Shown: piece by piece, positions 18,986 to 44,203 of the stretch | How positions within the stretch are numbered: the stretch's first letter is position 1 | Layout: each line of letters opens with the position of its first letter | From: Wenzhouxiangella sp. | GTDB lineage: Bacteria; Pseudomonadota; Gammaproteobacteria; Xanthomonadales; Wenzhouxiangellaceae | Assembly (NCBI GenBank): GCA_007694055.1 | Contig: RECK01000134.1 | Coordinates: forward strand, 1-52,847 | DNA length: 52,847 bases | Direction of reading: 5' to 3' | The notes under the pieces: generated by a model | The model's input: only the letters and a program-made list of their open reading frames with translations | What the model was told of the DNA's origin: nothing | The model's database searches: none | Made by a program: the position numbers and the translations under genes

Positions 18986-20084
18986 TCAGGCCAATCCGGC
19001 CTTGAGCTGGGCGGCGATGAACTCGTCAATATCACCGTCAAGCACTTTCTGGGTATCCGAGCGTTCCACGCCGGTCCGCAAATCCTTGATCCGCGACTGG
19101 TCCAGCACATAGTTGCGGATCTGGCTGCCCCAGCCGATGTCGGACTTTTCATCCTCGGCGGCCTGGGCCTTTTCCTGCTGCTTTTTCAGCTCCATCTCGT
19201 AGAGCTTCGCACGCAACTGGGACATGGCCCTGTCCTTGTTCTTGTGCTGGGACCGGTCAGTCTGACACTGAACCACGATACCCGACGGCTCGTGAGTGAT
19301 GCGCACAGCCGATTCGGTCCGGTTGACGTGCTGGCCGCCGGCTCCCGAAGCCCGGTAGACATCAATACGCAGATCCGCAGGATTGATGTCGATATCGATA
19401 TTGTCATCGACTTCCGGCGAGACGAACACGCTGGCGAACGAGGTATGGCGACGATTGCCGGAATCGTAGGGCGACTTGCGCACCAGGCGGTGGACGCCGG
19501 TTTCGGTCCGGCACCAGCCAAACGCGTAGTCGCCCTCCACTCGCACGGTAGCGCTCTTGATGCCTGCCTCGTCCCCGGACGAGACTTCGATCAGCTCGGT
19601 TTTCCACCCTCTTCGCTCGGCCCAGCGCAAATACATCCGGAGCAGCATCTCGGCCCAGTCCTGGGCCTCGGTGCCGCCGGCACCGGCCTGGATATCGATA
19701 AAGCACGGGCGGTTATCCATCTCGCCGGAAAACATGCGCTGGAATTCCAGCTCGGCGACGATTCGCTCCAGGCGCTCGAGATCCTCGGCCACGCTGGCCA
19801 TGGTGTCGTCGTCGTCCTCGGCCAGGGCCATTTCCAGCAACTCCGCGGCATCGTTGACGCCGTCGATGACTGCGCGCTGGGCTCCAACCGAACGATCGAG
19901 ATCGGCCCGTTCCTTGCCCAGCTTCTGAGCATGGTCCGGATCATCCCAGACCGACGGATCCTCGAGCTCGCGCGTTACTTCCTCGAGCCGTTCCTGCTTG
20001 CCTTCGAAGTCAAAGGTACCCCCTAAGCGCAGCCACGCGGCGCTCCAGATCGTCCAGGAATTGCTTCAGCGAAGTCTGTTCCAT
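18986..20084 (-). CDS. prfB: Peptide chain release factor 2 (programmed +1 frameshift)
   Basis: [16 protein letters not shown] (GGQ) and [13 protein letters not shown]. Zero-frame [24 protein letters not shown] ends at an in-frame TGA within AGGGGGTACCTTTGAC; the +1 frame continues [22 protein letters not shown]. Confidence 0.95.
20010..20024 (-). promoter_or_regulatory. prfB +1 programmed frameshift site
   Basis: Minus strand AGG GGG TAC CTT TGA: internal SD-like AGGGGG, CTT slippery codon, TGA at 20012-20010, matching the canonical RF2 recoding signal. Confidence 0.95.
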
Positions 20085-20314
20085 GCCATCGTCCTTGGTA
20101 TCGGGAAAACCCGCTATTGTACCTTCGCCAGCAAACACATCACCAACCTGACGCCAATTGACAAGGCCAGGCGCGGAAAACTCGTTTTGCGCGCTGACTG
20201 GTGCTAGCATGAGCATCAGGGTCACGGGAGAGTTTTCGCAGCCACACTTATGGTCAGGCTTCGGAATACGGGCAGCTCACAATCCAGGCCGGGTCCGGCC
20301 TCGGGTGGCTTTGC

Positions 20315-21646
20315 ATGCGCCGGCCCATGATCAGCGCACGTCTCGCTCGCGGCCTGGTCTGGGCGCTTGCGCTGGTGCCCGTGGTTTTTTTCAGCATCGG
20401 CCTTGGCGCCAAAGATTTCTCCAGCGCATCGTCCATCCTCAACACGCTGGGTCGACTGACCGGGGTGCTGGGGCTGGCTCTGTTGTTACTGGCCGCGGCA
20501 CTCAGCGCAAGGGTACCCGGCTTCGATCAACCCTTTGGTGGGCTGACCAAGCTCTGGCATACCCATCACCTATTCGGCGCCGCCGCGCTGCTGATGCTGC
20601 TGGCCCACCCCCTGCTTCTCGCCCTCGCCAGCGCCACCCATGGTCATCAACTACCAGTCAAAGTGCTTTTCCCACCCCTGAGCGATACCGCAACCTGGAG
20701 CGGCTGGGCCGCGCTGCTGTTGATGATGGTATTCCTTGCGCCAAGCTTTTCGTTTTTCGGCAGCCCCATGTACGAACGCTGGAAACGCATTCACGCCCTG
20801 GCCGGTCCGGCGATCATCCTGGCCCTGGTCCACACTTTCTTGTTCAGCCGCACCATGCCGGTCAACCTGGACACCGCAATCTGGACCCTGTTTGCCTTGC
20901 TCGGTGTCGGTGCAGTTGCCTGGCGCCTGATCTTCTCCCGCCGGGCTGGTCGGGTCACGCACACCATAGTTGACGTGCAGGCGGTCGCCAACAACGTTGT
21001 CGAGCTGACCCTCCAACCAGCGCGTCCCGAGCGCCGACTCAACTACCAGGCCGGCAATTTCGTCTACATGACGCCCCTGGACAAGTCCCTGGCTGCCGGA
21101 CATGGCGAAGAACACCCCTACACCCTGTCTTCTTCCCCGACCGAGCCCAACCTGCGCATCGCAATCAAGGACCTGGGTGATGCCAGCCGTGCCATCCAGA
21201 GCGTGACGCCCGGCACCACGGTCAAGATCGAAGGCCCCTACGGCCGCTTCTTCCCTACCAGTGGTGAAACATCGTCGCCGGAGCTCTGGGTCGCCGGCGG
21301 CATCGGCATCACGCCGTTTCTTGCCCGGCTTCGGCACCTCAGAGCGCTGAAGCAGGCTGCCGACATTCACCTGATTTACGCGGTCCAGGACGAGGCGCGT
21401 GCCTTGTATGCAGATGAACTGCGCGAACTGGCAAACGCCATCCCCGACACTCGACTCACGTTTCATTACTTCTACAAGGAAGGCCCGATAAGCGCCGATT
21501 TCCTGACCACCACCTGCCCCGATCTCGATCAACGCGAGGTCTTCATCTGCGGCCCGCTGCCGCTGAACAAGCTGGTCCAGGAGCATCTGCGCCGGATCGG
21601 TCTGCCTTACTCAAGAATCCACACCGAGGAGTTCGAACTGTTATGA
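20315..21646 (+). CDS. Ferric-reductase-like transmembrane flavoprotein (FRE/NOX-type haem domain plus FAD/NAD domains)
   Basis: Two His pairs 13 residues apart in TM helices (HLFGAAALLMLLAH and HALAGPAIILALVH), FAD motif HPYTLSSSP, nucleotide-binding GGIGITPF, C-terminal CGPLPLNKLVQEHL and EEFELL. Confidence 0.88.
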   Translation: MRRPMISARLARGLVWALALVPVVFFSIGLGAKDFSSASSILNTLGRLTGVLGLALLLLAAALSARVPGFDQPFGGLTKLWHTHHLFGAAALLMLLAHPLLLALASATHGHQLPVKVLFPPLSDTATWSGWAALLLMMVFLAPSFSFFGSPMYERWKRIHALAGPAIILALVHTFLFSRTMPVNLDTAIWTLFALLGVGAVAWRLIFSRRAGRVTHTIVDVQAVANNVVELTLQPARPERRLNYQAGNFVYMTPLDKSLAAGHGEEHPYTLSSSPTEPNLRIAIKDLGDASRAIQSVTPGTTVKIEGPYGRFFPTSGETSSPELWVAGGIGITPFLARLRHLRALKQAADIHLIYAVQDEARALYADELRELANAIPDTRLTFHYFYKEGPISADFLTTTCPDLDQREVFICGPLPLNKLVQEHLRRIGLPYSRIHTEEFELL

Positions 21647-22002
21647 AGAAACTCATGTTTGCGTCTTTCATCGCTTTCTGGGCCGCGGTCGGCACGCTGC
21701 TGGCCATGCAGGCGCTGACCCCGACACCGGCTGCCGCCGACGACACCGAGGCCCTGCCCGAATTCACCCTGGCCGATATCGCCGAACACGACACACTCGA
21801 GAGCTGCTGGATGGCCATCGAGGGCAAGGTTTACGATTTCACGGACTATATTCCCGAACACCCCACCCCGCCGTTCGTGATGGAACAGTGGTGCGGCCGT
21901 GAGGCCACCGAAGGGATGCGGACCAAGGGTTATGGTCGCGACCATACGCCAGCCGCCTGGGCCATGATGGAGCCCTACCTGATCGGCACACTGGTGGATT
22001 GA
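21643..22002 (+). CDS. Cytochrome b5-like haem-binding domain protein, membrane-anchored or exported
   Basis: N-terminal hydrophobic segment; FTLADIAEHDTLESCWMAIEGKVYDFTDYIPEHPTPP...GREATEGMRTKGYGRDHTPAAW...IGTLVD resembles the b5 fold. ATGA overlap with the previous gene. Confidence 0.85.
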   Translation: MKKLMFASFIAFWAAVGTLLAMQALTPTPAAADDTEALPEFTLADIAEHDTLESCWMAIEGKVYDFTDYIPEHPTPPFVMEQWCGREATEGMRTKGYGRDHTPAAWAMMEPYLIGTLVD

Positions 22003-22007
22003 CCGCA

Positions 22008-22952
22008 ATGATCCGAGCCAGCCGAGCAGGCCTTCTCGTCACGGTTTTCCTGCTGACCGCCTCGATCGTATTGGCCGTTCAGGCCGATCCTGGCAAAGTG
22101 CAGTTTCCGGAACATATTGCCAACTGTGTGCGCTGTCACGACGCCGGTTCGGACTACCCGGTGCTGGAGATTTTTGCCACACCCCATGCAGTGCTGGCTG
22201 ACCCCCGCACCGGTGCGGCCGAGTTGGGTTGCGCGGCTTGTCACGGCCCCAGCCTGGATCATGCCCGGCTGCCGGCGCGGGCCGGTGGCTCGGAAGTCGA
22301 AGTCGCCTTTCACGGTGACAGAAAGGCCAGCACCCAGATACGCAACCAGGCCTGCCTGTCCTGCCACGCCGGTGCCGACATGATTCACTGGCACGGCAGC
22401 GCCCACGACTTCGACGGCCTGGCCTGCGTGGACTGTCACCGCGTCCACCCGCGCCAGGATCCCGCCCTGGATCCGTTCCAGCAGGTCCAGGCCTGCACCA
22501 GCTGTCACCAGGCCCAGCATGCCGAGTTTCATCGTCCCTTCGCCCACCCGGTGCGCGACGGGCAGCTGCTCTGCACCGATTGCCACAACCCCCACGGCGG
22601 TGTCGGTCCCTCCGATCTGCATGCCATGACGGTCAACGAGAGCTGCTACAGCTGCCATGCCGAGAAGCGAGGCCCGTTTCTGTGGGAACACCAACCGGTT
22701 CGCGAGGACTGTTCGCTGTGCCATCAGCCGCATGGTTCGGCGCACAGGGATCTTCTTACCCAGCGCACGCCATTCTTGTGCCAGCAATGTCATATGGGCC
22801 AGTTCCACCCCTCAACCGCACTGAGCGGAACCGGCCTGCCGGGTGATACGCGTCCATCAGGCAGCCAGTCCATGCTTGGCCGTGACTGCATGAACTGTCA
22901 TGTACAGGTGCACGGCTCGAACCATCCGGCCGGGGTGGGCCAGACGCGCTGA
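22008..22952 (+). CDS. DmsE/MtrA-family periplasmic decahaem c-type cytochrome
   Basis: Signal peptide plus ten CXXCH motifs: CVRCH, CAACH, CLSCH, CVDCH, CTSCH, CTDCH, CYSCH, CSLCH, CQQCH, CMNCH. Confidence 0.93.
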   Translation: MIRASRAGLLVTVFLLTASIVLAVQADPGKVQFPEHIANCVRCHDAGSDYPVLEIFATPHAVLADPRTGAAELGCAACHGPSLDHARLPARAGGSEVEVAFHGDRKASTQIRNQACLSCHAGADMIHWHGSAHDFDGLACVDCHRVHPRQDPALDPFQQVQACTSCHQAQHAEFHRPFAHPVRDGQLLCTDCHNPHGGVGPSDLHAMTVNESCYSCHAEKRGPFLWEHQPVREDCSLCHQPHGSAHRDLLTQRTPFLCQQCHMGQFHPSTALSGTGLPGDTRPSGSQSMLGRDCMNCHVQVHGSNHPAGVGQTR

Positions 22953-22980
22953 TGGGTACGATGACCAGAGGATAGAGCCG

Positions 22981-25206
22981 ATGACGACGCAAGGTTTTCA
23001 AACGTTCACCATGGCAGGCGCCCTGCTCCTGTCCACGTCTGTTGCCGCCATAGAACGCGAGGCTTTTGATCAACTGACCAGCGCCGAGAACCACGTTGAG
23101 ATCGGTCTGGGCTGGGTCAGTGAAGACTCGGCCCGGTTTGGCCGCTACAACGCGCTCTACGACGACGGTCTGTTTCTGGTGCTGGGCCTTGACTACCTGG
23201 TTCAGCCGCGTTTTGATGATCCCGCCCCGCTACGGGTTGAAGTGACGGCGCGTGACCTGGGGCTGGGTAATCGCCACCTCCTTGTCCGCAGCGGCCGGCA
23301 GGGGCGCTTCGGTCTGGAAGCCGACTACCGCGAGCGCCGCGCCCGCAGAGGGGATGGTCTGGTCACCGTCTATGACAGCCAGAACCGGGCCAGTTTGCGC
23401 CTGCCTGAGGACTGGCAGGCCGCCCCGGGCACGGCCGGCATGAATCTTCAGCTGCCCGTCCTGCATGAGTTCAGCCTGGTGCAGCGTAGACGCCAGGGAC
23501 GGGTGGCGGCATCGGTCAACCCTGCCGAACGCTGGCAGGTCAGCGCCCAGGCTCGTCAGGAAGACCGTGATGGAACCCATTTGCTTGCCGGACTTTTCGG
23601 TAACACCGGCGGCAATCCCCGGGCGGCCTTCCTGCCTGTTCCCGTGGATTACCGGACACGCCTGGTTGATCTGAATCTCGACTACAACGATCGGCGGCGC
23701 CAGTTTCGGCTCGCTTACCATGGATCCCTGTTCACCAATAACGAGCCTGGTCTTGCCTTCGAGAACCCGTTTTCAACCATTGGTGGCTGGGCCCCGGGAT
23801 CGGGCTTTCCCGACGGACGCGGCGAGTTGGCCTTGCCACCGGACAACCAGTTCCATCAACTCAGCCTGGCCAGCGGCTGGCAGTTCAGTCCCAATCTGCG
23901 CCTGGTCGGCCAGGTTGCCTCCGGCCGCATGACCCAGAACGAAGCGTTCCTGCCCTACACCGCCAACCCGCTGCTCGCCCAATCGATTGTCCAGCCGCTG
24001 CCGGCAGACAGCCTGGACGGACGGATAGACACCACCTCGGTTCATCTGCGTCTCAGCGGGAGGCAATCGTCGCAGCTCAGCTGGAACGCCAGTTACCGCC
24101 TTGATGATCGCAACAACCGAACCGAGCTCAGGGAGTGGGTCTATATCGGCGGCGATTCGCAACTTCAGGATGCCGGCCCAGCCAGCAGCCGCCGCCGCTA
24201 CAATCTGCCCCAGGACTATCGCCACCAGCGTCTGCGCCTTGATGGACAGTGGCGGATCGACGAACGCACGCGACTGGCCAGCGCCATCCAGCGCAGCCGA
24301 ACCGAAAGAAGCCTGAGCGCCCGGGACCAGGTCGATGAAAGCTTGCTGGAGCTCAGTGTCCGCCACAGGGCCAGCCAGCGCCTGCAACTCGGCGCCCAGG
24401 CCCTGTGGGCCGATCGCGACGGTTCCGAATACGATGGCGCAGCGGGTTTCCTGGCCAGCCATGATTCCGGCTATACCGATACGCTGGCCGGCCAATGGGC
24501 CAACATCCCTTCCCTGCGCATGTATCACCTGGCCGACCGACGTCGCCAACGGCTTGCGCTTTCGGCCGGTCTGACCCCTCACGAACACTGGTCCCTGGGC
24601 CTGGAGGCAGCCCACGCCAGCGATGACTATCGCAACACCGTCATCGGACTGACCGAGAGCCAGCAGCAATCGCTGTCGGGAACCCTGACCTGGGCCCCGG
24701 CGCGCAACCTCTCGGCCCACCTGTTCTACACCTGGGAGCGACTGTCCAGCGACCAGTCCGGCTTCAGCTTTCGGGGTGGTCCCAACCGTCCGGTCGATCT
24801 GGCCAACCCGGAGCGGGCCTGGGAAGTGGATCATCGCGATCGCATCGATACCCTGGGTGCGGGTCTGGAACGCCGCCTGCTGGATGGCCGACTGCAAGTG
24901 CAACTGGACTGGGTCAAGGCCCGGGCGCGGGCCAGGCAGGACGTGAGTTCGGGTTCAGCCCTTTCGACGGCTCCACTGCCGACCGTGCGCAATGATCTCG
25001 ATTCGATCATGCTACGGGCCAGCTACCGCCTGTCTGAACCCTTGAGCCTGCACCTGCGCTACTGGTTCGAGCGTTTCAGCTCGGACGACTGGGCGCTGGA
25101 CCAGGTCGGCCCCGACCAGCTGGCCAATATCATCCTGCCCGGCGAAAGTTCACCGGACTACCGTGTCCACGTCGCGTCCGTGAGCCTGCGCTATCGCTTC
25201 GACTAG
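22981..25206 (+). CDS. MtrB/PioB-family decahaem-associated outer-membrane beta-barrel protein
   Basis: Signal peptide, NHVEIGLGWVSEDSARFGRYNALYDDGLFLVLGLDY, alternating beta-strand pattern, terminal aromatic (SLRYRFD). Directly downstream of the decahaem cytochrome. Confidence 0.9.
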   Translation: MTTQGFQTFTMAGALLLSTSVAAIEREAFDQLTSAENHVEIGLGWVSEDSARFGRYNALYDDGLFLVLGLDYLVQPRFDDPAPLRVEVTARDLGLGNRHLLVRSGRQGRFGLEADYRERRARRGDGLVTVYDSQNRASLRLPEDWQAAPGTAGMNLQLPVLHEFSLVQRRRQGRVAASVNPAERWQVSAQARQEDRDGTHLLAGLFGNTGGNPRAAFLPVPVDYRTRLVDLNLDYNDRRRQFRLAYHGSLFTNNEPGLAFENPFSTIGGWAPGSGFPDGRGELALPPDNQFHQLSLASGWQFSPNLRLVGQVASGRMTQNEAFLPYTANPLLAQSIVQPLPADSLDGRIDTTSVHLRLSGRQSSQLSWNASYRLDDRNNRTELREWVYIGGDSQLQDAGPASSRRRYNLPQDYRHQRLRLDGQWRIDERTRLASAIQRSRTERSLSARDQVDESLLELSVRHRASQRLQLGAQALWADRDGSEYDGAAGFLASHDSGYTDTLAGQWANIPSLRMYHLADRRRQRLALSAGLTPHEHWSLGLEAAHASDDYRNTVIGLTESQQQSLSGTLTWAPARNLSAHLFYTWERLSSDQSGFSFRGGPNRPVDLANPERAWEVDHRDRIDTLGAGLERRLLDGRLQVQLDWVKARARARQDVSSGSALSTAPLPTVRNDLDSIMLRASYRLSEPLSLHLRYWFERFSSDDWALDQVGPDQLANIILPGESSPDYRVHVASVSLRYRFD

Positions 25207-26459
25207 AGATCCTGAACCGAAGCACGCGCCAGCGGCATGGTCATGCACCGGCAACCACCGCCGCCGCGGGAAAGTTCGGCCCCGTCCATGGTCACCACGA
25301 CCTTGCTATCGGGCACGATCGGGCTGCGGCCGGCAATCACATCGTCAGCGGCAAGAATATCGAATCCGGCCTGGCTGAGTGCATCGACGGTGTACTGGTT
25401 GTGGCCATAGCCAATGATCTGGCCCGGTCCAAAGGCGAAGAAGTTTGCACCACTGGCCCACTGCTCGCGCTCCTGATGAAAATCGTCTTCCCCGCCGCAG
25501 TTGATCGGCTTCAGATCCAGGCCCAGGGCCGACAAGGCCTCCAGCACACCAGGGTACTCGCGGATTTCGGCGCCATCACCCTCATTACCGAAGCGACAAT
25601 GGAACGCGCGGCAGCGGCGGGCACCGGTAATCAAAGGCGGAAAGACCACGCACTTGTCCCGGTCCACCATGGTGAAGATCATGTCCAGATGGATGGTCGC
25701 GCGGGTTTTCGGGATCTCCACCACGATGAAGTTGCGCACCGGGCCCTTGCTGGTAATGGCTCGCATGATCTGATCCACACCGGAAACAGACGTTCTTTCG
25801 CTGTAGCCTATGACGACCAGATCCTTGCGAATGACCAGAAGATCACCACCCTCGATGGTCAATTCGGAATCGCGGTTGTCGGTCCCGTCGAAATAGAAGC
25901 CGGCGCTTTCAATGTCGGCGTGGTACTTGAACACAGCCTTTAGCAGCAAGGCCTCGGCAACGCGCGCCTTGTAGGCCATGGAGCCAATGATGACGCGCTG
26001 ATTCAGACACATCGTGGCATCACGGGTAAAAAAGGTGTTGGGCAACGGCGGAATGGCGTAGCGTGAAGGCGCCAGAAATTTTTCCAGGCTGATGGTCTTT
26101 TTCGGAGTGCCCTCGATCAGCCGGCGAGCCAGATCTCCTGGCGCCATCTCAACGAGCCCGGCGATCAACTCAGGGCATTCGTAGAGACTGCACAGGGCGT
26201 CAACCAGGCCTGTTTTGACTTTATCCTGGGCCAGCACATCGGCCAACAGGTCCTGCAACTCCAGGGTTCGCGCTACCCTGGACAACACACCCTTGAGCTG
26301 ACGATGCTCCTGACCGGCCAGGGCGAGGTTGAGAATATCGTCATACAACACCTCGGCGGCCGTCTGCGGGGTCATGTTTTCCATTTCCTGACCCGGGGTG
26401 TGAACGACCACTGTCTGCAGCGGGCCAATTTCCGAATTCAGGTCGATACGAATCGTCAT
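25203..26459 (-). CDS. Arginine deiminase family protein
   Basis: LPNTFFTRDATMCLNQRVIIGSMA, EGGDLLVI, C-terminal catalytic SRGGGGCRCMTMPLAR. Confidence 0.9.
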   Translation of the reverse strand: MTIRIDLNSEIGPLQTVVVHTPGQEMENMTPQTAAEVLYDDILNLALAGQEHRQLKGVLSRVARTLELQDLLADVLAQDKVKTGLVDALCSLYECPELIAGLVEMAPGDLARRLIEGTPKKTISLEKFLAPSRYAIPPLPNTFFTRDATMCLNQRVIIGSMAYKARVAEALLLKAVFKYHADIESAGFYFDGTDNRDSELTIEGGDLLVIRKDLVVIGYSERTSVSGVDQIMRAITSKGPVRNFIVVEIPKTRATIHLDMIFTMVDRDKCVVFPPLITGARRCRAFHCRFGNEGDGAEIREYPGVLEALSALGLDLKPINCGGEDDFHQEREQWASGANFFAFGPGQIIGYGHNQYTVDALSQAGFDILAADDVIAGRSPIVPDSKVVVTMDGAELSRGGGGCRCMTMPLARASVQDL

Positions 26460-29746: not shown

Positions 29747-29791
29747 TTTGCCTCAAGCTTGGTCGGAATCCGGAACCCGGCCTTACCTGTC

Positions 29792-31177
29792 ATGGCGAAA
29801 ACGGCTCACCCACTCAAGTTGCGGGAACGGGTTGGCTATGGCCTGGGCGACACGGCCTCCAACTTCTTTTTCCAGACCTTCAACATCTTTCTGCTCTACT
29901 ACTACACCGACGTCTACGGCATCTCTGCCGCGGCCGTGGGCACCATGTTTTTCGTGAGCAGACTCTGGGATGCGGTAAACGATCCTCTGATGGGCGCGAT
30001 CGCTGACCGCACCCGTACCCGCTTCGGCCGCTTCCGTCCCTACCTGTTGACGATTGCAATTCCCTACGGCCTCATGGGTTTCCTGCTGTTCGCCAACCCT
30101 GACTTCGACGAGACGGGCAAGCTGATCTATGCCTGGATTACCTACACGCTGATGATGATGCTCTACACCGCCATCAACGTTCCCTACTCGGCGCTGATGG
30201 GGGTAATGTCGCCGAGCTCCAGGGAAAGAACGGTGCTGGCATCCTTTCGCTTCGTCGGTGCTTTCGGCGGGGCCCTGCTGATCTCGATGCTGGTTCGCCC
30301 CATGGTCCAGTTTTTCGGAGCCGAGGACGAGGCCACCGGATTCAGAGTCACCATGGCAATCTTTGCGGTCATTTCAATCCTGATGTTCTGGACCACCTTT
30401 GCCACGACCCGCGAACGGGTGACCTCACCGCCGGACGAAAAGATCAACCTGAAAAATGACTTGCGGATCCTGTTTTCCATGGGCCCCTGGCTGGTCCTGT
30501 TCTTTGCCGGCATCCTGACCCTGGCCAGCGTTGCGCTGCGCACTTCGGTGACCATTCACTACTTCAAGTACTACGTGCTTGATGACGGCAGTGCATTGTT
30601 CTGGATATTCGACCAGACCACGCTGTTTCTCAGCATCAATGCGCTGTTCCTGATCATCGGTGTCTGTTGCACCCGGTACCTGACAGAGCGCTTCGAGAAG
30701 AGGTCACTGCTGATCTGGCTCTCCCTGGGCAGCGCCATTTTCTTCTGCCTGATGTTTTTCGTCCCACCAGACCAGTTTCTGATGATGTTGCTGGTCAGCT
30801 CCATCGGCTCGCTGTTCGCGGGCCCGACGGCACCCCTGGTCTGGTCCATGTACGGGGATGTGGCCGACTACAGCGAGTGGCGTTTCAATCGTCGCATGAA
30901 CGGATTGATTTTCTCGGCTTGCATGTTTGCCCAGAAATTCGGATTGACCATCGGCGCCGGGCTTTCCGGCTGGCTGCTGGCCTGGTTTGGTTACGTCGCC
31001 AACGTTCCACAAACCGAGAGCGCCATGACCGGTATTCGCCTGCTCTTCACCTTCATCCCGGCCGCGTTCGCGATATTGAATGTCATCGTGCTGACCCAGT
31101 ATCGATTGTCCGATGCCCAGGTTGATCGCATCGAGGCGGATTTGATCAACCGCAAGCTGGCCCAGGCTGGCCAGTGA
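29792..31177 (+). CDS. GPH-type MFS sugar:cation symporter 1
   Basis: LRERVGYGLGDTASNFFFQTFNIFLLYYYTDVYGIS..GTMFFVSRLWDAVNDPLMGAIADRTRTRFGRFRPYLL. Confidence 0.9.
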   Translation: MAKTAHPLKLRERVGYGLGDTASNFFFQTFNIFLLYYYTDVYGISAAAVGTMFFVSRLWDAVNDPLMGAIADRTRTRFGRFRPYLLTIAIPYGLMGFLLFANPDFDETGKLIYAWITYTLMMMLYTAINVPYSALMGVMSPSSRERTVLASFRFVGAFGGALLISMLVRPMVQFFGAEDEATGFRVTMAIFAVISILMFWTTFATTRERVTSPPDEKINLKNDLRILFSMGPWLVLFFAGILTLASVALRTSVTIHYFKYYVLDDGSALFWIFDQTTLFLSINALFLIIGVCCTRYLTERFEKRSLLIWLSLGSAIFFCLMFFVPPDQFLMMLLVSSIGSLFAGPTAPLVWSMYGDVADYSEWRFNRRMNGLIFSACMFAQKFGLTIGAGLSGWLLAWFGYVANVPQTESAMTGIRLLFTFIPAAFAILNVIVLTQYRLSDAQVDRIEADLINRKLAQAGQ

Positions 31178-31219
31178 CGGTCCGGGCTTCATCTGGCCCG
31201 CCCCTGTGGCAGACCTCGA

Positions 31220-31248
31220 TTGCAATAGCCTGACAACGCTGTCATAAT
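31220..31248 (+). promoter_or_regulatory. Predicted promoter with embedded LacI-type operator (site 2)
   Basis: TTGCAA - 17 bp - CATAAT; palindrome TGACAACGCTGTCA (31231-31244) lies between and partly over the hexamers. Confidence 0.6.
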
Positions 31249-31254
31249 TTTCCG

Positions 31255-32727
31255 ATGAATGCGCATACAACCGCCCCTGCCGACCGCATACCGTTTCGTC
31301 AGAAGCTGATTTATGGCGCCGGCGCCTTCGTCAACAACCTGCTGGCGGCAGCCATCGGCGGGATGATGATCGTTCTCAACCTGGGCTTTGGCATGAATCC
31401 GGCCGTGGTCGGACTGCTCGGTGCCCTGCCGCGCCTTACCGATGCCATCACCGATCCCCTGATGGGATATATCTCGGACAATACCCGGTCGCGCTGGGGA
31501 CGACGCCGACCCTACATCTTCATTGGCGCCATCATCGCAGGTGTCATCTTCATGCTGCTTTGGCAGCTACCGCCCGGCAAGACCGAAAGCTGGTATTTCT
31601 GGTACTTCCTGGGCGGATCCTTCCTCTTTTATCTCGGCTATACGATTTTCGCCACCCCCTGGGTTGCCCTGGGTTACGAACTGACGCCGGATTATCACGA
31701 ACGAACCCGCCTGATGGGGGTGCAGAACTTCATCGGGCAGTCGATCTACCTGGTTTCCCCGTGGTTCCTGCTGATCATGCAGTACGACCGCTGGTTCGAC
31801 GACATGACCGAGGGCGCAGCCGCCCTGGCGATTGCAATCGGACTGATCACCATCTGTGTTGGCATTATTCCGGCCATCTTTCTGCGCGAACGCTACCAGG
31901 GCATTGCCCAGGAGCCGGACAGTCAACCCGCGCCGGAAGTCACCGAGGTGGCAAATGTCGTGTGGCGAAACCTGCTGGAGTTTTTCAAAGGCTTCGCCAC
32001 CACGCTGAAATTCAAACCATTCCTGAAGCTATGTGCAGCGACATTCCTGGTCTTCAACGGCTTCATCATGGTGGCTGCCTTTCAGTTCTACGTCATCATT
32101 TACCATGTTTTCGACGGCGATATGGTCCAGGGCGCGAAGTTCGCCGGCTATGCCGGCACCCTTCAGTCGCTGTCAACCTTCCTGGTCATCGTGATAGTGA
32201 CCTGGCTGGGTACCCGGATTGGCAAGCGCAAAGCCTTTTTCATCGCCATTGGCCTGTCAACGCTGGGCTTCATGCTCAAGTGGTTCTGCTATAACCCCGA
32301 CTACCCGTGGCTGATCCTGGTCCCAGCACCGTTGATTGCATTCGGCCTGGGCGGACTATTCACCCTGATGCCTTCGATGATTGCCGATGTCGTCGATGCC
32401 GATGAACTCAAAACCCACCAGCGTCGGGAAGGCATGTATGGGTCGATTTTCTGGTGGGTGGTCAAGCTCGGCATGGCCGTCGCCATTGCCGCCGGGGGCT
32501 TCCTGCTCAACGCCACCGGCTTCGACGTGGAACTGGGAGGCAACCAGGCAGCCAGCACCATCACTTTGATGCGCGCCTTTGACGCTTTTGTACCGGCCCT
32601 CGCCTCACTCATTGCGATCTGGGCGATCGCGAGTTTCTCGATCACCGAAGACACCGCCTACGAGGTACGCGCGATTCTCGAGCGTCGGCGCGGCACACCG
32701 GACAGTGCCTTGCCCGATCCTGCTTGA
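31255..32727 (+). CDS. GPH-type MFS sugar:cation symporter 2
   Basis: FRQKLIYGAGAFVNNLLAAAIGGMMIVLNLGFGMNP..RLTDAITDPLMGYISDNTRSRWGRRRPYI. Confidence 0.9.
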   Translation: MNAHTTAPADRIPFRQKLIYGAGAFVNNLLAAAIGGMMIVLNLGFGMNPAVVGLLGALPRLTDAITDPLMGYISDNTRSRWGRRRPYIFIGAIIAGVIFMLLWQLPPGKTESWYFWYFLGGSFLFYLGYTIFATPWVALGYELTPDYHERTRLMGVQNFIGQSIYLVSPWFLLIMQYDRWFDDMTEGAAALAIAIGLITICVGIIPAIFLRERYQGIAQEPDSQPAPEVTEVANVVWRNLLEFFKGFATTLKFKPFLKLCAATFLVFNGFIMVAAFQFYVIIYHVFDGDMVQGAKFAGYAGTLQSLSTFLVIVIVTWLGTRIGKRKAFFIAIGLSTLGFMLKWFCYNPDYPWLILVPAPLIAFGLGGLFTLMPSMIADVVDADELKTHQRREGMYGSIFWWVVKLGMAVAIAAGGFLLNATGFDVELGGNQAASTITLMRAFDAFVPALASLIAIWAIASFSITEDTAYEVRAILERRRGTPDSALPDPA

Positions 32728-32760
32728 AGCTGGCCAAGGCTGCATTGGCACGGCAGCATT

Positions 32761-32774
32761 TGACAGCGCTGTCA
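32761..32774. promoter_or_regulatory. Candidate LacI-family operator (site 3), perfect palindrome
   Basis: TGACAGCGCTGTCA is identical to its reverse complement. TTGACA (32760-32765) - 17 bp - CAGAAT forms a possible promoter. Confidence 0.75.
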
Positions 32775-32906
32775 CCTGCTGCCAGAATACGACCTGGATA
32801 CGGGCTAATGGTATCGCCGGGGCTAAAAACAAGTCTCAGCGAAGATTGTTCCCGCTGAATTTGCTTTGTAGAGCCCATTGAAAAAATCAGTTGAAAAGCA
32901 ACCATC

Positions 32907-35159
32907 ATGTCCAGCACCTCACCCAGAACACGTCCACCCGCTTCAGATGACCTGGAACAGCGCATCACCGCGCTGATTCAACGCATGTCACTGTCCGAAA
33001 AGATTGGCCAGATGGTTCTGGGGCAGCCCGGCGAAGGCCCACCGGCAGAAACCCTTGGGGATCGGCTCAGGGAAGGTCGGATCGGTTCGATCATCAACGT
33101 GGTCGACCGGGAAACCGTCAATGAACTGCAACGCATTGCCGTCGAGGAATCACGCCTTGGCATCCCCCTGCTGGTCGGCCGCGATGTCATTCATGGTTTT
33201 CAGACCGTCATGCCGATCCCACTCGGACAGGCCGCAAGCTGGAACCCTGACCTGGTTCGAAAAGCTGCCCGGGCTGCTGCCGAAGAAGCGTCCCTTGCCG
33301 GCGTGAACTGGACCTATGCCCCGATGGTGGATATTTCGCGTGATCCGCGCTGGGGCCGCGTAGCCGAAAGCCTGGGCGAGGACCCCTTGCTGACCGGCGA
33401 GTTGGCCAAGGCCATGGTCGAGGGTTTTCAGGGCGAGGATCTCTCAGCCCCGGACGCCATCGCCGCTTGCGTCAAACATTTTGCCGGCTATGGCGCCTCG
33501 GAAAGCGGGCGCGACTATGCCACGACCAACATTCCGGAAAACGAGTTGCGCAACGTCTACCTGCCCCCCTTCAAATCCTGTATCGATGCCGGCGTGGCCA
33601 CCGTGATGACCTCGTTCAGCGACCTGGATGGGATACCAGCAACCGCCAATGACTTCCTGCTGCGCAGGATCTTAAGAGAGGAATGGTCGTTTGAAGGCTT
33701 TGTCGTCAGCGACTGGGCCTCCATCCCCGAGCTGACCACCCATGGTCTGACCGCCAATGACAAGGAAGCGGCTCTGGCCGCGGCCAGTGCCGGGGTTGAT
33801 CTGGAGATGGCAACCGACACTTACTCTCGTCACCTGGCCGAACTGCTTGAATCCGGACAGCTGGCCATTGAAACCATAGATGCTGCCGTAGCCCGAATCC
33901 TGCGTATCAAGTTCCAGCTGGGCCTGTTCGACAACCCTTACACCGACCAGCCCGGTGGCGATGCAGTGGCAATCCGCGAGCGAGCACTGGAAACAGCCAG
34001 AGATGCAGCCACCCAGAGCACGGTGCTGCTGCAGAACCGGGAAGCTGTCTTGCCACTTGACAGGGCCCGGCTCGCATCGATCGCCGTGATCGGCCCCCTG
34101 GCCGATGCACCTTATGAGCAGCTGGGCACGTGGATCTTCGACGGCGATCCCGAACTCAGCCTGACCCCATTGCAAGGCATCAGGGAACTGGCCGGAGATC
34201 AAATCGCGGTTCGCCATGTACCCGCGCTGGATACCAGCAGAAGCCGTGACACATCGGCCTTTGACCAAGCACTTGCCGCGGCGCGCGAGTCCGATGTCAC
34301 CGTGCTGTTCCTGGGCGAGGAATCCATCCTGTCCGGGGAAGCGCATTCACGCGCCAATATCGACCTGCCCGGCGCCCAGGCTGAGCTGGTTCGGACCGTG
34401 CGTCAGGCCGGCAAGCCCGTGGTGGCCGTCATCCTGGCCGGTCGGCCACTGACCCTGTCCGATATCGTTGAGGAAGTCGATGCCATCCTGTTTGCCTGGC
34501 ACCCGGGCAGTATGGGCGGGCCGGCCATTGCCGACCTGTTGTTCGGCACCGTATCACCTTCAGGCAAATTGCCGGTGACCTTCCCGCGTGTGGTCGGCCA
34601 GATTCCGATCTATTACAACCAGAAAAACGGCGGCAAGCCGCCCAGCCCCGAAAGCGTTGTGCACATTGACGACATCCCGGTCGAAGCACCGCAGACCTCG
34701 CTGGGGATGACGGCCTTTCATCTGGACACGGACTTCAGGCCCCTGTTTGCCTTTGGCCACGGCCTTTCCTACACGCGCTTCCACTACAGCAATTTGCGCA
34801 CGGGCGCGCCCACCATTGCCATCGGCGAAACGCTCAGGATCAGCGTCGAGGTGAAAAATATCGGCCCGGTCGCCGGGGATGAAATCGTCCAGCTCTACCT
34901 GCGCGACCCGGTCGCCCAGGTCACCCGACCGATTCGCGAACTCAAGGCCTTTCGTCGGATCAACCTGGAGCCCGGCCAGTCTCTGACGGTGGAGTTCGAG
35001 CTCTGTGATCGGGACCTGGGCTTCTACGGTCGTCACCAGGAATGGGTTGTCGAGCCGGGGGAGTTCCAGGTCTGGGTCGGCGGCAGTTCCGAGACCGACC
35101 TCCAGGTCACTTTTCAACTCCTCAACGAGGAAGAAGTCGTCGCCTTGCGCCCGGGCTGA
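32907..35159 (+). CDS. Glycoside hydrolase family 3 beta-glucosidase
   Basis: VAESLGEDPLLTGELAKAMVEGFQGEDL, KHFAGYGASESGRDY, nucleophile region GFVVSDWASIPEL, fibronectin-like C-terminal domain. Confidence 0.94.
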   Translation: MSSTSPRTRPPASDDLEQRITALIQRMSLSEKIGQMVLGQPGEGPPAETLGDRLREGRIGSIINVVDRETVNELQRIAVEESRLGIPLLVGRDVIHGFQTVMPIPLGQAASWNPDLVRKAARAAAEEASLAGVNWTYAPMVDISRDPRWGRVAESLGEDPLLTGELAKAMVEGFQGEDLSAPDAIAACVKHFAGYGASESGRDYATTNIPENELRNVYLPPFKSCIDAGVATVMTSFSDLDGIPATANDFLLRRILREEWSFEGFVVSDWASIPELTTHGLTANDKEAALAAASAGVDLEMATDTYSRHLAELLESGQLAIETIDAAVARILRIKFQLGLFDNPYTDQPGGDAVAIRERALETARDAATQSTVLLQNREAVLPLDRARLASIAVIGPLADAPYEQLGTWIFDGDPELSLTPLQGIRELAGDQIAVRHVPALDTSRSRDTSAFDQALAAARESDVTVLFLGEESILSGEAHSRANIDLPGAQAELVRTVRQAGKPVVAVILAGRPLTLSDIVEEVDAILFAWHPGSMGGPAIADLLFGTVSPSGKLPVTFPRVVGQIPIYYNQKNGGKPPSPESVVHIDDIPVEAPQTSLGMTAFHLDTDFRPLFAFGHGLSYTRFHYSNLRTGAPTIAIGETLRISVEVKNIGPVAGDEIVQLYLRDPVAQVTRPIRELKAFRRINLEPGQSLTVEFELCDRDLGFYGRHQEWVVEPGEFQVWVGGSSETDLQVTFQLLNEEEVVALRPG

Positions 35160-35222
35160 CCCGCCAGCTCCGTGTTCAAGCCCGTGCTTCCGCTCGAATC
35201 TGTCAATGCCCATGAAGCGCCC

Positions 35223-37466
35223 ATGTACAAGTATTTCCGCAAAATTTTCATTGGTCTCGCCGTAGTCATTGCGGTGACCGCCTGCACATCACCGGCAACC
35301 CACACGGATCCAGCGGCGACGGTCGAGATCATCAGGACCGAAACCGGCTTCCAGCTGCTACGCAACGGTGAACGGTATGAAATCCGCGGCGCCGGCATGG
35401 TCCATGATGACTTTGCCGCATTTACCCGGCGCGGCGGCAACTCGATCCGCACCTGGACCACGCGCGACGACGAAGGCGACATGATGGCGCTGATGGACCA
35501 GGCCCACGCCCATGGTGTCACCGTGGCCCTGACCTTGCCCATGCCGGCCGAGCGCCACGGCTTCGACTACGATGACGAGGATGCGGTCGCTGCCACCCTG
35601 GGCGAGCTGCGCGAGGACATTCTGCGCTTCCGCGACCACCCTGCCCTCTTGTTCTGGATCATCGGCAACGAACTCAACCACAGCTATACCAACCCCAGGG
35701 TCTGGGACGCCGTCAACGACGTTGCCCGCATGATCCATGAGCTCGACCCCCATCACCCGGCTACCACTGCCCTGGCCGGATCATCGGAGGACGTGGTTCT
35801 GGCAGTCCTGTCCCGGGCGCCCGACCTGGATTTCTTGAGTTTCCAGGTCTACGGCAGACTGTTCGAGCTGCCACAGCAGCTGGAACGACTCGGCTTCGAC
35901 CAGCCATTCATGATTACCGAATGGGGCACGATAGGCTGGTGGGAGATGGAAACCACCACCTGGGGCGCGCCGGTCGAGCTGACCAGCAGCGAAAAGGCCG
36001 AAGTCTACCGACGCGGCCATCGCGACATCCTGACCCCGCTAGCCGATCAGCTGATTGGCTCGTATGCCTTTGTCTGGGGCCAGAAGCAGGAGCGCACGCC
36101 GACCTGGTTCGGGATGCTGACCAGTGCCGGGGAGCAGACCGAGGCCATTGATGCCATGGAGTGGATCTGGACCGGACAGCGGACCAGACACCCCGCACCC
36201 CGGGTCGAAAACCTGCTGCTTGACGGTCGCAGCGCGCGCGACAACGTCATCGTTCTGACCGGTGAAGAGTACGAGGCCTGGTTCGAGGTGGCCGGCGCTG
36301 ACGCCATCAGCTATCGCTGGGAAGTGAAACCGGAAAGCGACGCCACCCAGGTGGGCGGCGATTACGAGGAACCCATAGCCCCCCTCGAAGGCCTGCTGTC
36401 TGCCCCTGACTCAGCCAGGACGTCGCTGGCAATGCCCGAGCGCGGCGCCTACCGGCTGTTTGCCTATGCCAGTGACGATAACAGTCGTGCCGCCCACGCC
36501 AACATCCCCTTCCTGGTTGAAGACGGTTTTCGGCAGTCTCCGGACAGCCTGATCGAAGGCCAGGTCATGGCGGTGGCCTACTCGGGCTTTCGTGAAGGCC
36601 AGCATCCTGACCGCGGCGAAGGCGCCGTCAATCCAAGCCGGGAAGAAATCCTCGAGGATCTGGAACTGCTGGTTGCGCATGGCTTTCACCTGATCCGGCT
36701 CTACGATGCCGGCGCCAATTCACGCACCACCCTGGAGCTGATCCGTGAACATGAACTGCCAATCAAGGTGCTTCTGGGTACCTGGCTGCGAGCCGAGCTG
36801 AGCAACCACGAAGGTTGCCCCTGGCTGGACGAGCCCATTCCCGACCACGAGCTGACCACCAATACGGCTGAAAACGCTGCCGAAATCGAGCGCGGCATCG
36901 AACTGGCCCGGGCTTTTGACGACATCGTGGTCGCGGTCAACGTCGGCAATGAAGCGCTGGTGGACTGGACCGATCACCTGGTCGAGCTCGACCAGGTGAT
37001 CGCCTATGTCAGACGGATGCGGGAAGCGATCGACCAACCCGTCACTGTTGCCGAAAACTACGAATGGTGGATTCGGGACGGCGCCCCGCTGGCTGCCGAG
37101 GTCGACTTTCTGGGTGTCCACACCTACCCGGTATGGGAAGAACGATCCATCGACCAGGGTCTTTCCTACACCGTCGAAAATCTAATCGCCGTCCACCAGG
37201 CCCTGCCGGACAAGCCCATGGCCGTGCTCGAGGCCGGGTGGGCAACCACCGCCAGCGAATTCGGCGAACGCGCCAGCGAAGCCGCCCAGGCACGTTACTA
37301 CCGCGAAATTCAGGCCTGGGCCAGCCAGACCAACATCACCGTGTTTTTCTTCGCTGCCTTCGACGAGCCCTGGAAAGGTGACCCCGATGACCCGCTCGGC
37401 GCCGAAAAGCACTGGGGACTTTTCTTCGAAGATCGCAGCCCCAAGAAAATCCTCAGGGACGACTGA
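35223..37466 (+). CDS. Bimodular clan GH-A lipoprotein: N-terminal TIM-barrel glycosidase plus C-terminal GH17-like beta-1,3-glucanase
   Basis: Lipobox-like VIAVTAC. N-module RGAGMVHDDFAAFTRRGGNSIRTW, IIGNELNHSY, MITEWGTIGWW. C-module AYSGFREGQHPDRG..., VNVGNEALVDW, VDFLGVHTYPVW, VLEAGWATT. Confidence 0.82.
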   Translation: MYKYFRKIFIGLAVVIAVTACTSPATHTDPAATVEIIRTETGFQLLRNGERYEIRGAGMVHDDFAAFTRRGGNSIRTWTTRDDEGDMMALMDQAHAHGVTVALTLPMPAERHGFDYDDEDAVAATLGELREDILRFRDHPALLFWIIGNELNHSYTNPRVWDAVNDVARMIHELDPHHPATTALAGSSEDVVLAVLSRAPDLDFLSFQVYGRLFELPQQLERLGFDQPFMITEWGTIGWWEMETTTWGAPVELTSSEKAEVYRRGHRDILTPLADQLIGSYAFVWGQKQERTPTWFGMLTSAGEQTEAIDAMEWIWTGQRTRHPAPRVENLLLDGRSARDNVIVLTGEEYEAWFEVAGADAISYRWEVKPESDATQVGGDYEEPIAPLEGLLSAPDSARTSLAMPERGAYRLFAYASDDNSRAAHANIPFLVEDGFRQSPDSLIEGQVMAVAYSGFREGQHPDRGEGAVNPSREEILEDLELLVAHGFHLIRLYDAGANSRTTLELIREHELPIKVLLGTWLRAELSNHEGCPWLDEPIPDHELTTNTAENAAEIERGIELARAFDDIVVAVNVGNEALVDWTDHLVELDQVIAYVRRMREAIDQPVTVAENYEWWIRDGAPLAAEVDFLGVHTYPVWEERSIDQGLSYTVENLIAVHQALPDKPMAVLEAGWATTASEFGERASEAAQARYYREIQAWASQTNITVFFFAAFDEPWKGDPDDPLGAEKHWGLFFEDRSPKKILRDD

Positions 37467-37472
37467 CTTGCC

Positions 37473-38507
37473 TTAGCCTGGAGCCGGTCCGGTCGATTCG
37501 CGAATCTTGAGCGCGCCCGGCACGATGACCGTGCCCTTGGGCGCCTCGCTCTCCTCGGTACCCTTGACCAGCATCAGCGTAGCCTTCTCGGCCATGGCCG
37601 CAAACGGCTGGCGAATGGTCGTCAGCGCGGGATGGATCTGCTCGGCCAGCGTGATATCGTCGCAACCAGCTATCGATAATTCATCCGGAACGCGAATACC
37701 GAGGCGATCTGCGACCCGCAGGACGCCCACGGCCATATCGTCGTTGGCGGCGAAAATGGCCGTTGGCCGGCTCTTGCGATCCAGCAGTTTCAGCGCGGCA
37801 GCTTCCCCGGAACCGAAGGAATTGTCACCGGCGGCGACCAGCTCTTCGGAGAACGTCAAGCCGCTTGCCTTCAATCCCGCCTTGTAGCCCTCGAAGCGAT
37901 GCCCGACCGCCTTGTGCCGCGGGTGCCCGGTGATGAATCCGATCCGGCGATGCCCGAGGGAGGCCAGGTAACAAGTCATTTCGGCCGCGAATTCGCGGTC
38001 ATTGGTCGCTACCACCATTTCCTTCGACAGCTTCTGCCCCGGAGACAAACGCACTAACGGTGTGCCCGTGGCCGAGATTGCCCGAACAATCTTCGGGATA
38101 TTCGACAGCGGCGCGGCCAGTACGATACCGGTCGGCCTGGCACGCTGAATCAGGAACTTCAGTTCGCTTTCGACATCATCGTTGCGGTAGTTGCAAGGGT
38201 GGATGAGCAGTTCGTAGCCGAGACTGCGGCAAACCCTGAGAACGCCTTCCTGCAAACGAATGATGTAGCCGGATGACGGCAGCTTGTAGGCACTGGGATC
38301 ATCGTAGACCAGGCAGATCAGGTGGGCACGTGAAGCAGCCAGATCACGCGCGGACTGGTTGGGCCAGTAATTGAGTTCGGCAATGGCCTTTTCTACCTTT
38401 TCACGAGTCGCATCCCGCACGCCGGACTCACGATTCACGACCCGTGAGACAGTCTTGATGGAAACGCCCGCCAGTCTGGCAACATCGTTGATCGTCGACT
38501 TGGACAT
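37473..38507 (-). CDS. LacI family transcriptional regulator
   Basis: N-terminal HTH STINDVARLAGVSIKTVSRVVNRESGVRDATREKVEKAIAELNYWPN; periplasmic-binding-like sensor domain. Confidence 0.95.
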   Translation of the reverse strand: MSKSTINDVARLAGVSIKTVSRVVNRESGVRDATREKVEKAIAELNYWPNQSARDLAASRAHLICLVYDDPSAYKLPSSGYIIRLQEGVLRVCRSLGYELLIHPCNYRNDDVESELKFLIQRARPTGIVLAAPLSNIPKIVRAISATGTPLVRLSPGQKLSKEMVVATNDREFAAEMTCYLASLGHRRIGFITGHPRHKAVGHRFEGYKAGLKASGLTFSEELVAAGDNSFGSGEAAALKLLDRKSRPTAIFAANDDMAVGVLRVADRLGIRVPDELSIAGCDDITLAEQIHPALTTIRQPFAAMAEKATLMLVKGTEESEAPKGTVIVPGALKIRESTGPAPG

Positions 38508-38620
38508 TATTATTCCGACCTGGATGGTTACGGGGCCAGCAGTGCCCCGCCTGCTGCTGCGGTCGGCGCACCCCTGAGCAGATTCTACCGAACCTTTGCT
38601 ACACGAATGTTAGATCAAGG

Positions 38621-38649
38621 TTGACAACGCTGTCAAAAAGACTTATAAA
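38621..38649 (+). promoter_or_regulatory. Predicted sigma70 promoter of the TonB-dependent receptor, overlapped by operator site 4
   Basis: TTGACA - 17 bp - TATAAA; operator TGACAACGCTGTCA (38622-38635) overlaps the -35 and spacer. Confidence 0.75.
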
Positions 38650-38657
38650 TTCTGAAA

Positions 38658-38671
38658 AGATAGCGCTGTCA
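38658..38671. promoter_or_regulatory. Candidate LacI-family operator (site 5)
   Basis: AGATAGCGCTGTCA just after the predicted +1; centre-to-centre distance to site 4 is 36 bp. Confidence 0.6.
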
Positions 38672-38781
38672 ATCACTCTCCATGCTCGGGGTATGGTGAG
38701 TCGAAGCGAGTCAAAATCATAAATGGATCGCAAGCAGACATTGCGAATACAACCGCTGCAAGGCAAATGAGGGCCCCATCC

Positions 38782-41700: not shown

Positions 41701-41835
41701 AACCTGTCTGTTTTCGTTGAAGGTCTCAACGTGACCCAGGAAACCCAGCGAGTCTACGTGCGCTATCCCGAACAGCTGCTGGCCGGCAACCAGTATGGGG
41801 CACGCTACAATCTCGGGGCCCGCTGGCGGTTCTGA
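38782..41835 (+). CDS. TonB-dependent receptor (carbohydrate-type)
   Basis: Signal peptide, plug domain DAIIAEDIGKFPDQNLAEALQRIPGISINRTNNEGSQITVRGFGPEFNLVTLNGR, C-terminal YNLGARWRF. Confidence 0.96.
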   Translation: MDQRNFHKTPLAVAVALALGTYMLTPAYAQETDSDTNDQRTEAVEESDDLDRMLITGVRGSMLQSMDRKRDAVGLVDAIIAEDIGKFPDQNLAEALQRIPGISINRTNNEGSQITVRGFGPEFNLVTLNGRSMPTQGGRSFDFLDIASTGVSAVEVIKTGRASLPTGGIGATVNLITNRPLDDPGFRAALIGKAVHETSSSDGDLGNLNEITPEFAGIYSNTFANDTFGISVTGSYERRDNREEFAAVDSWIPNYGLDGGTVDNNNQRADGTWWHPQDAGYGFADISRTRINGQLALQWAPSDDLRFTLDYTYSELDFQRDQNSFGVWFANPNVSATVNERGTVTNVTQVGGDYAINVARDHTIKTNDSLGFNVDWRATDNLRFNLDAHDSRSRLKGGGLGDGRPGSSANLIVGNTFCDWCGSVDGAGPFTATIDEKFASYSRGGIPIWGATFRDTETGEPLDFIRRSDMGSLFGQAFDVRNKNEIFQVQLGGVWDNFDASAISSIDFGLSWTDQEFVNRNAFSGLLPAGFWLTSAQYWPDEIWEDANFRGLLSDFGNSGNFPLDQYFVLDFNSLIDIWETIDCVSTGDPVCNDVYWPSWGPDFQDPSGNRGLFWPGPLGNATGAGITEEIAAAYFQVNVQEEINGMPFNGRVGLRIEDTTVISTGNEVPAVAVVWVGGDEFVTEFGPSTFVTEKNSNTEFLPSVDLDLGFKEDLIGRFSYSRTLTRPPIGALSPVRTFVGNPNPQNREASSGNPGLLPFVSDNIDLSLEWYYAPGSYASIGYYRKHVNNFLVGTTVRDSFEGLLDPFNGAQAELARQQLAEEGIPLSNQNIFQRINENLGRPATTPVRAEPGDPLIVWNVGTTANEERGRVWGWELQLQHMFGDSGFGVQANATLVNGDVKVDRNAVDRQFALPGLSDSYNLIAFFENEHISTRIAWNWRDEFLAGFDQFDSPVFVEDYGQLDINVTWYATENLSVFVEGLNVTQETQRVYVRYPEQLLAGNQYGARYNLGARWRF

Positions 41836-41858
41836 TCTCTCCATTGATCGAGCGTTTC

Positions 41859-41888
41859 AAGCCGCTGGCAACAGCGGCTTGCTTTTTT
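41859..41888 (+). terminator. Intrinsic terminator after the TonB-dependent receptor
   Basis: AAGCCGCTG-GCAA-CAGCGGCTT stem-loop followed by GCTTTTTT. Confidence 0.8.
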
Positions 41889-41904
41889 GGCACACAAGGT
41901 TGAT

Positions 41905-43455: not shown

Positions 43456-43468
43456 ACAGGAATACCCC

Positions 43469-44203
43469 ATGACCAACCACGTATTGCTCGACAACGTCAC
43501 CCACAAGCACCTGAAGATCAACCGCGCCTGGCGCCCGAACCAGGGTTACGACGTCAATCTGGCCCGCGTCTTTCCGGTCGAGCTGGGAGCCCTGCAGGCC
43601 GAGTACCCGCTGTTTTTCATCCGCAATGTGGACTCCGGTCATTTCGAGACCGTCGCCCTGCTCGGCTTCGAAGATAGCGAGAACCTTTACCTGGGCGATG
43701 ATCAATGGCTGGCCCGTGCCGTTCCCATGACCATCGAGCGCCAGCCCTTCCTGATCGGATTCCAGGACCAGGCCGGCGGGCCGGACCAGACCCCGGTCAT
43801 CCATGTCGATATGGACCACCCCAGCATCAGCGAGTCCGAGGGCACGCCGGTATTTCTTCCCCACGGCGGCGAAGGCCCGCTGCTGGAGCACATCAATACG
43901 CTGCTGGCTTCCATCCATGCAGGCCACCAGGCCAGCCAGGACTTTTCCCGCTTGCTGGTCGGCCTGGACCTGATTGAATCACTGGACCTGGAAGTCGAGT
44001 TCAACGATGGATCCCGGCACGCGCTCAAGGGCCTGTACACCATCAATGAAGAGCGGCTGCGCGCACTCAATGCCGATAGCCTGGCCACGCTGCATGAAAA
44101 AGGCTACCTGCAACATATCTACATGCTGCTGGCCTCCCTGCCCAAGCTGGCCGTACTGATCGAACGCAAGAACCGCCTGATCGAGGCTGCCGGGAGCGCC
44201 TGA
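43469..44203 (+). CDS. SapC family protein
   Basis: HKHLKINRAWRPNQGYDVNLARVFPVELGALQAEYPLFFIRN; FLIGFQD. Confidence 0.88.
   Translation: MTNHVLLDNVTHKHLKINRAWRPNQGYDVNLARVFPVELGALQAEYPLFFIRNVDSGHFETVALLGFEDSENLYLGDDQWLARAVPMTIERQPFLIGFQDQAGGPDQTPVIHVDMDHPSISESEGTPVFLPHGGEGPLLEHINTLLASIHAGHQASQDFSRLLVGLDLIESLDLEVEFNDGSRHALKGLYTINEERLRALNADSLATLHEKGYLQHIYMLLASLPKLAVLIERKNRLIEAAGSA

Follow-up and report, generated by a model that had tools for sequence, protein, structure and literature searches.

How is an outer-membrane electron conduit of the MtrAB type supplied with electrons when the usual inner-membrane input appears to be missing? The question is raised by a four-gene locus on contig RECK01000134.1 of Wenzhouxiangella sp. 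(GCA_007694055.1), whose 52,847 nucleotides (nt) were searched for genes and are called the window in the following. Shewanella-type extracellular electron transfer starts at the quinone pool via CymA. In the window, four genes that run in one direction between positions 20327 and 25206 encode a FRE/NOX flavocytochrome, a cytochrome b5, a ten-haem MtrA/DmsE-type cytochrome and an MtrB/PioB barrel (Table 1). We read this operon as an outward trans-envelope electron chain that would start from reduced pyridine nucleotide, NAD(P)H, and use neither quinol nor an MtrC-type surface cytochrome, a reading to which we give a probability of roughly two thirds.

A NOX-type flavocytochrome and a cytochrome b5 beside an MtrAB-type conduit

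A preliminary description of the locus had presented the four genes as co-directional and tightly packed, and this is how they were found. The end of the FRE gene at 21646 overlaps the b5 start at 21643 (ATGA), and the downstream gaps amount to 5 nt between the b5 stop at 22002 and the decahaem ATG at 22008, and to 28 nt between the decahaem stop at 22952 and the barrel gene at 22981. The ATG at 22008 is most likely the start of the decahaem gene; the longest open reading frame begins at TTG 21999 instead. For the FRE gene, alignment with homologues makes ATG 20327 a more likely start than 20315.

In the flavocytochrome an N-terminal six-helix ferric-reductase domain (FRD) is fused to cytoplasmic flavin adenine dinucleotide (FAD) and NAD(P)H domains (Pfam), and the positively charged loops predict an N-in/C-in topology with both termini in the cytoplasm. 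The two His pairs and the FAD/NAD motifs earlier ascribed to this protein are real: H84, H85, H98, H160 and H173 are invariant across 17 homologues and form the pairs H84/H85-H98 and H160-H173 on transmembrane helices 3 and 5, and the motifs HPYT (FAD), GGIG and TPF (NAD core; GGIGITPF in the window protein) and CGP are invariant as well. The pairs are spaced H84-X13-H98 and H160-X12-H173, which we take to be the NOX-type spacing. By family profile, the top PDB match along the length of FRE was the NOX of Streptococcus pneumoniae (SpNOX), which was also the top match for the predicted structure (TM-score 0.69/0.76; mean predicted local distance difference test score, pLDDT, of the model 78). 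The window's genome (4.15 Mb, 96.9% estimated complete), among whose sampled relatives are Wenzhouxiangella species, holds one copy of a full-length FRE of the operon type. Its other flavoprotein matches were rejected as paralogues, as they cover the dehydrogenase part only, the best of them being a ferredoxin-reductase-like protein without a membrane domain.

In the cytochrome b5 the haem ligands H73 and H101 are invariant across 23 homologues, likewise H49, C55 and C84. Its nearest solved relative, by sequence and by fold, is the Ectothiorhodospira vacuolata cytochrome b558 (1CXY), which is ∼54% identical over the b5 domain and aligns with it at both Cys and both ligand His. The conserved ligands and the haem-binding bacterial b5 as closest structure agree with the earlier view of this gene product as a haem protein. 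From its sequence the b5 is predicted to be exported to the periplasm and to adopt a bis-His b5 fold with two extra Cys, like the b558/1CXY type. The solved 1CXY chain has no signal or anchor segment, whereas the operon b5 carries an N-terminal hydrophobic segment that is either an anchor or a cleavable signal. Presumably the two Cys of 1CXY form a disulfide and the protein is soluble; if this applies here too, the operon b5 would act in the periplasm as a shuttle, either soluble or loosely anchored. No description of an electron partner or role of 1CXY was found in the open literature searched, a scope outside which most subscription papers fall.

The decahaem protein contains exactly ten CXXCH motifs, the number previously claimed, the first at residue 43 of the longest open reading frame. 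It scores 281 bits with TIGR03508 (cut-off 192), and its profile matches 6R2Q chain A with an E-value of 1.5e-103. The last gene had been thought to encode an MtrB-type barrel, an assignment confirmed by TIGR03509 (404 bits, cut-off 240), PF11854 (455 bits) and 6R2Q chain B (E-value 5.6e-57). Both features of an MtrAB-type conduit, a decahaem MtrA/DmsE cytochrome and an adjoining MtrB/PioB barrel gene, are therefore present. The window MtrB has no Cys and hence no CXXC motif.

Co-occurrence with MtrAB and absence of CymA and MtrC

The four genes had been proposed to belong together, and a neighbourhood check found FRE and b5 co-occurring with MtrAB across the bacterial family to which the organism belongs and adjoining it in several gene orders. 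A scan with b5 alone yielded 24 loci, at which FRE adjoins b5 wherever the contig extends that far; on re-scanning by profile, FRE lay directly upstream of b5 in 34 of 35 loci, the exception being a contig that begins at the b5 gene. Searching by b5 alone led to 24 genomes; MtrB is present in 22 of them, including cases in which FRE-b5 is unlinked to MtrAB. Among 43 family genomes, 25 carry b5 and MtrB, 2 b5 only (65% and 89% complete), 5 MtrB only and 11 neither (Fisher p 4e-5); the corresponding counts at ≥90% completeness are 14, 0, 3 and 8 (Fisher p 2e-4), both p values being indicative only because the genomes are related to each other.

With A and B denoting the decahaem and barrel genes, the order FRE-b5-A-B is found in Wenzhouxiangella relatives, and A-B-FRE-b5 in other gammaproteobacteria, which carry the labels Pseudomonadales, Gammaproteobacteria or Proteobacteria. 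Further arrangements have A-B convergent with FRE-b5 or place CymA-MtrC-A-B next to FRE-b5; in some genomes FRE-b5 stands alone beside an arginine-deiminase-family gene, with MtrCAB elsewhere. At one locus of a relative (L061, 1129-8266) a NapC/NirT-MtrC-MtrA-MtrB-dihaem cluster is directly convergent with b5-FRE.

Neither CymA nor MtrC/OmcA had been visible at the locus, and this absence extends to the whole genome at its 96.9% completeness: genome-wide searches detected no NapC/NirT (CymA-type) protein with PF03264 and no OmcA/MtrC protein with TIGR03507, next to one MtrB and a single decahaem protein of the DmsE type that exceeds the family cut-off. The same two families were searched over the 43 family genomes. 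Of the 25 with b5 and MtrB, 11 carry MtrC (one via a contig-edge fragment), and 10 of these 11 also NapC/NirT; the other 14 are without MtrC, 11 of them also without NapC/NirT. Among these last 11 is a genome assembled as a single contig (G039, 99% complete), which has the FRE-b5-A-B operon. The concern that a CymA/MtrC system elsewhere might be the real partner thus found no support in eleven family genomes with FRE-b5 and MtrB, nor in the window's genome.

Linkage of FRE-b5 to MtrAB is also commoner without MtrC, with 13 linked and 1 unlinked cases compared to 3 and 8 with MtrC (p 0.002, again indicative only for related genomes; two cases were scored as linked through the decahaem gene, at which the contig ends). 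A tree of MtrB, rooted at the midpoint and with some long branches, splits with 100/100 support into MtrBs of CymA/MtrC clusters and MtrBs of MtrC-lacking FRE-b5 genomes. An N-terminal CXXC is found in all MtrBs on the CymA/MtrC side and in none on the FRE-b5 side. Mutation of C42 of this motif in S. oneidensis MtrB abolishes Fe(III) reduction, as cited in PMC12175506.

Upstream of the Wenzhouxiangella operons no Fur-, FNR- or ArcA-like sites stood out clearly above chance. FNR/Anr-like palindromes (e.g. TTGATTCGAGTCAA, TTGACCCTGATCAA) occur mainly in front of A-B-FRE-b5 operons from other gammaproteobacteria, 5′ of the decahaem gene at L008, L009, L012, L014, L019 and L022, where they hint at oxygen-responsive control; a number of the genomes concerned are closely related.

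Among the neighbouring genes, the one convergent to the operon belongs to the arginine-deiminase family. It scores under NCBI's arcA cut-off. In many relatives it remains a neighbour of FRE-b5, also when MtrAB lies elsewhere. Large open reading frames beside FRE were considered as TonB receptors, which was not borne out in those scanned. The release-factor-2-like frame upstream of the operon may extend further upstream in another frame, a possible frame change that we presume to be like the programmed frameshift of prfB.

Table 1. Genes of the operon and surrounding features in the window
Feature	Position	Strand	Evidence or remark
FRE/NOX-type flavocytochrome b, ∼439 residues	20327..21646	+	Pfam Ferric_reduct, FAD_binding_8, NAD_binding_1
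Cytochrome b5, N-terminal hydrophobic segment	21643..22002	+	Pfam Cyt-b5, E-value 6e-19
Decahaem c-type cytochrome, MtrA/DmsE family, signal peptide	22008..22952	+	TIGR03508; ten CXXCH
MtrB/PioB-family outer-membrane beta-barrel	22981..25206	+	PF11854; TIGR03509
Release-factor-2-like open reading frame	18986..20085	-	opens at in-frame TTG
Arginine-deiminase-family protein	25203..26459	-	
Carbohydrate-type region, then at least two tryptophan-halogenase-family genes	29759..48163	+	two MFS sugar transporters, GH3 hydrolase, LacI regulator, TonB-dependent receptor

The proposed electron chain and competing explanations

From the gene content, domains, cofactor ligands, co-occurrence, linkage, the absence of CymA and MtrC and the MtrB split, we infer each electron-transfer step and the direction of flow, as well as the donor in vivo (a pyridine nucleotide) and the final acceptor, as follows. 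Cytoplasmic NAD(P)H would reduce the FAD of the FRE/NOX protein, the inner-membrane input module, and the two haems b of this protein would carry electrons across the inner membrane. The haem on the periplasmic side would then hand them to the periplasmic cytochrome b5, a relay that may be comparable to the CctA/FccA/PdsA shuttles of CymA pathways. From b5 they would pass to the ten-haem MtrA-type cytochrome inside the MtrB-type barrel and on to a cell-surface acceptor. In the absence of MtrC, minerals would be less likely acceptors than O2, flavin/quinone shuttles or Fe(III) in soluble or chelated form. Fe(III) citrate in solution is still reduced by an MtrAB suppressor of Shewanella that lacks outer-membrane cytochromes (PMC12175506). 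SpNOX passes electrons directly to cytochrome c, and its authors suggested that bacterial NOX proteins have periplasmic partners besides O2 (PMC5676040). For a NOX-type protein, both the redox potentials and the membrane potential favour outward flow.

The preliminary description had left the donor as NAD(P)H or quinol. The route from NAD(P)H through FAD, bis-haem b, b5 and decahaem cytochrome to the barrel is supported by co-occurrence, linkage, the ligands and the missing CymA and MtrC; the quinol donor gained no support, since FRE is an NAD(P)H flavocytochrome of the NOX type, complete in its domains, and has SpNOX as top structural match.

The alternative that survives best, itself unlikely, holds that FRE-b5 acts independently on another target in the periplasm, reducing either O2 to superoxide or a partner in repair or iron reduction, MtrAB being a mere neighbour with another donor. 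Several observations weigh against our reading here. FRE-b5 was found without detected MtrB in three gammaproteobacterial genomes (G428, G434 and G186), and the idea that it occurs only with MtrAB was rejected on this account. No common partner gene stands beside these three pairs (L056, L057, L058), where the neighbours are H+-pyrophosphatase, phosphofructokinase, patatin and MFS genes. In a sample of 369 gammaproteobacterial genomes this b5 type is rare: it occurs in five (>130 bits), of which only two have MtrB over the cut-off, so that in some lineages FRE-b5 serves other purposes or has partners that escaped detection; the majority of MtrB-bearing genomes in the sample are without this b5. 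FRE-b5 is also retained in genomes having a complete CymA-MtrCAB, where it may be a second input; as it occurs both there and without detected MtrB, it is not exclusive to MtrAB. The FRE tree, unlike the MtrB tree, mixes genomes of both Mtr types. FRE-b5 may therefore be the older resident, and the mixed tree suggests that it stayed while Mtr modules were exchanged beside it. In addition, two further multihaem cytochromes of the window's genome (G000) could be alternative partners, one with seven CXXCH motifs (L081 2-1627, truncated by the contig) and one with eight (L082 319-1872). The latter carries an N-terminal hydrophobic segment. Precedents for an independent role exist as well: SpNOX makes superoxide, and MsrQ feeds the periplasmic MsrP (PMC5676040). 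However, MtrB co-occurs with FRE-b5 even where the two are unlinked, linkage recurs in different gene orders, and no CymA-type donor was detected in eleven family genomes.

Considerably less probable than independent action is a chain that runs inward in the manner of PioAB or MtoAB, from an extracellular donor through the decahaem cytochrome to b5 and FRE, or to the quinone pool. An MtrAB without MtrC and without CXXC does recall the MtrC-less PioAB and MtoAB, but the operon shows no PioC- or MtoD-like partner, and the decahaem protein is without the ∼200-residue N-terminal extension of PioA. Moreover, a NOX-type protein delivering electrons to NAD(P)+ would have to move them uphill in redox potential and against the membrane potential. 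Least probable of all is a FRE fed by quinol as a cytochrome-b quinol dehydrogenase, for which five-helix inner-membrane proteins with two HX13H motifs by other porin-cytochrome clusters, proposed to be quinone-active (PMC5566968), offer a parallel, but which is at odds with the alignment of FRE to SpNOX over its length and with its FAD and NAD domains, both of them complete and with HPYT, GGIGITPF and CGP conserved.

Relation to known conduits and possible meaning

In the MtrCAB/CymA system of Shewanella (Baker et al. 2022, PMC8805035), as in the operon, a decahaem cytochrome in an MtrB-family barrel receives its electrons from the inner membrane by way of the periplasm; the operon differs in having no MtrC/OmcA, no CymA and no MtrB CXXC, and in its input, an NAD(P)H flavocytochrome and a cytochrome b5. 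The same survey covers complete mtrCAB clusters and places Wenzhouxiangella MtrCAB in Group 3; ferric reductases, flavoproteins, NADH and cytochrome b proteins go unmentioned in its text. PioAB and MtoAB, which serve Fe(II) oxidation (PMC6831781, PMC5566968), are two-component decahaem/barrel conduits without MtrC like the one described here, but they run inward and have PioC or MtoC/MtoD/CymA as partners. In the PCC3/PCC4 clusters found in neutrophilic Fe(II) oxidisers (PMC5566968), an FRD-like bis-haem b protein likewise adjoins a porin-cytochrome cluster; compared by description, however, these proteins have five helices, no flavin/NAD domains or b5 are reported, and they are proposed to be quinone-active. 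SpNOX (PDB 8QT6) shares with FRE the FRD with NOX-type His pairs and the FAD/NADPH domain, but is a stand-alone oxidase of unclear role (PMC5676040), whereas the FRE gene of the window stands together with genes for a cytochrome b5 and an outer-membrane conduit. The component families are already known, and for the combination of FRE and b5 with MtrAB no earlier description was found in the open literature searched.

Beyond this locus, we see about even odds that the operon represents a further class of input at the inner membrane to Mtr conduits, in which a NOX homologue and a b558-type b5 directly feed MtrAB from NAD(P)H and bypass the quinones, so that cytosolic reducing power is dumped or used outside. 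If this is true, extracellular reduction would no longer be coupled to respiration in a chain started by NAD(P)H via a NOX-type protein, with redox balancing or iron acquisition as suggested uses. Such a chain would provide a physiological acceptor for one branch of bacterial NOX and a partner for the 1CXY-type b5. In this way bacterial NOX and the cytochrome b5 of the Ectothiorhodospira type, both known in vitro without a clear role, would gain a physiological setting. Close relatives within the family carry either the CymA-MtrCAB or the FRE-b5-MtrAB form and so lend themselves to a natural comparison.

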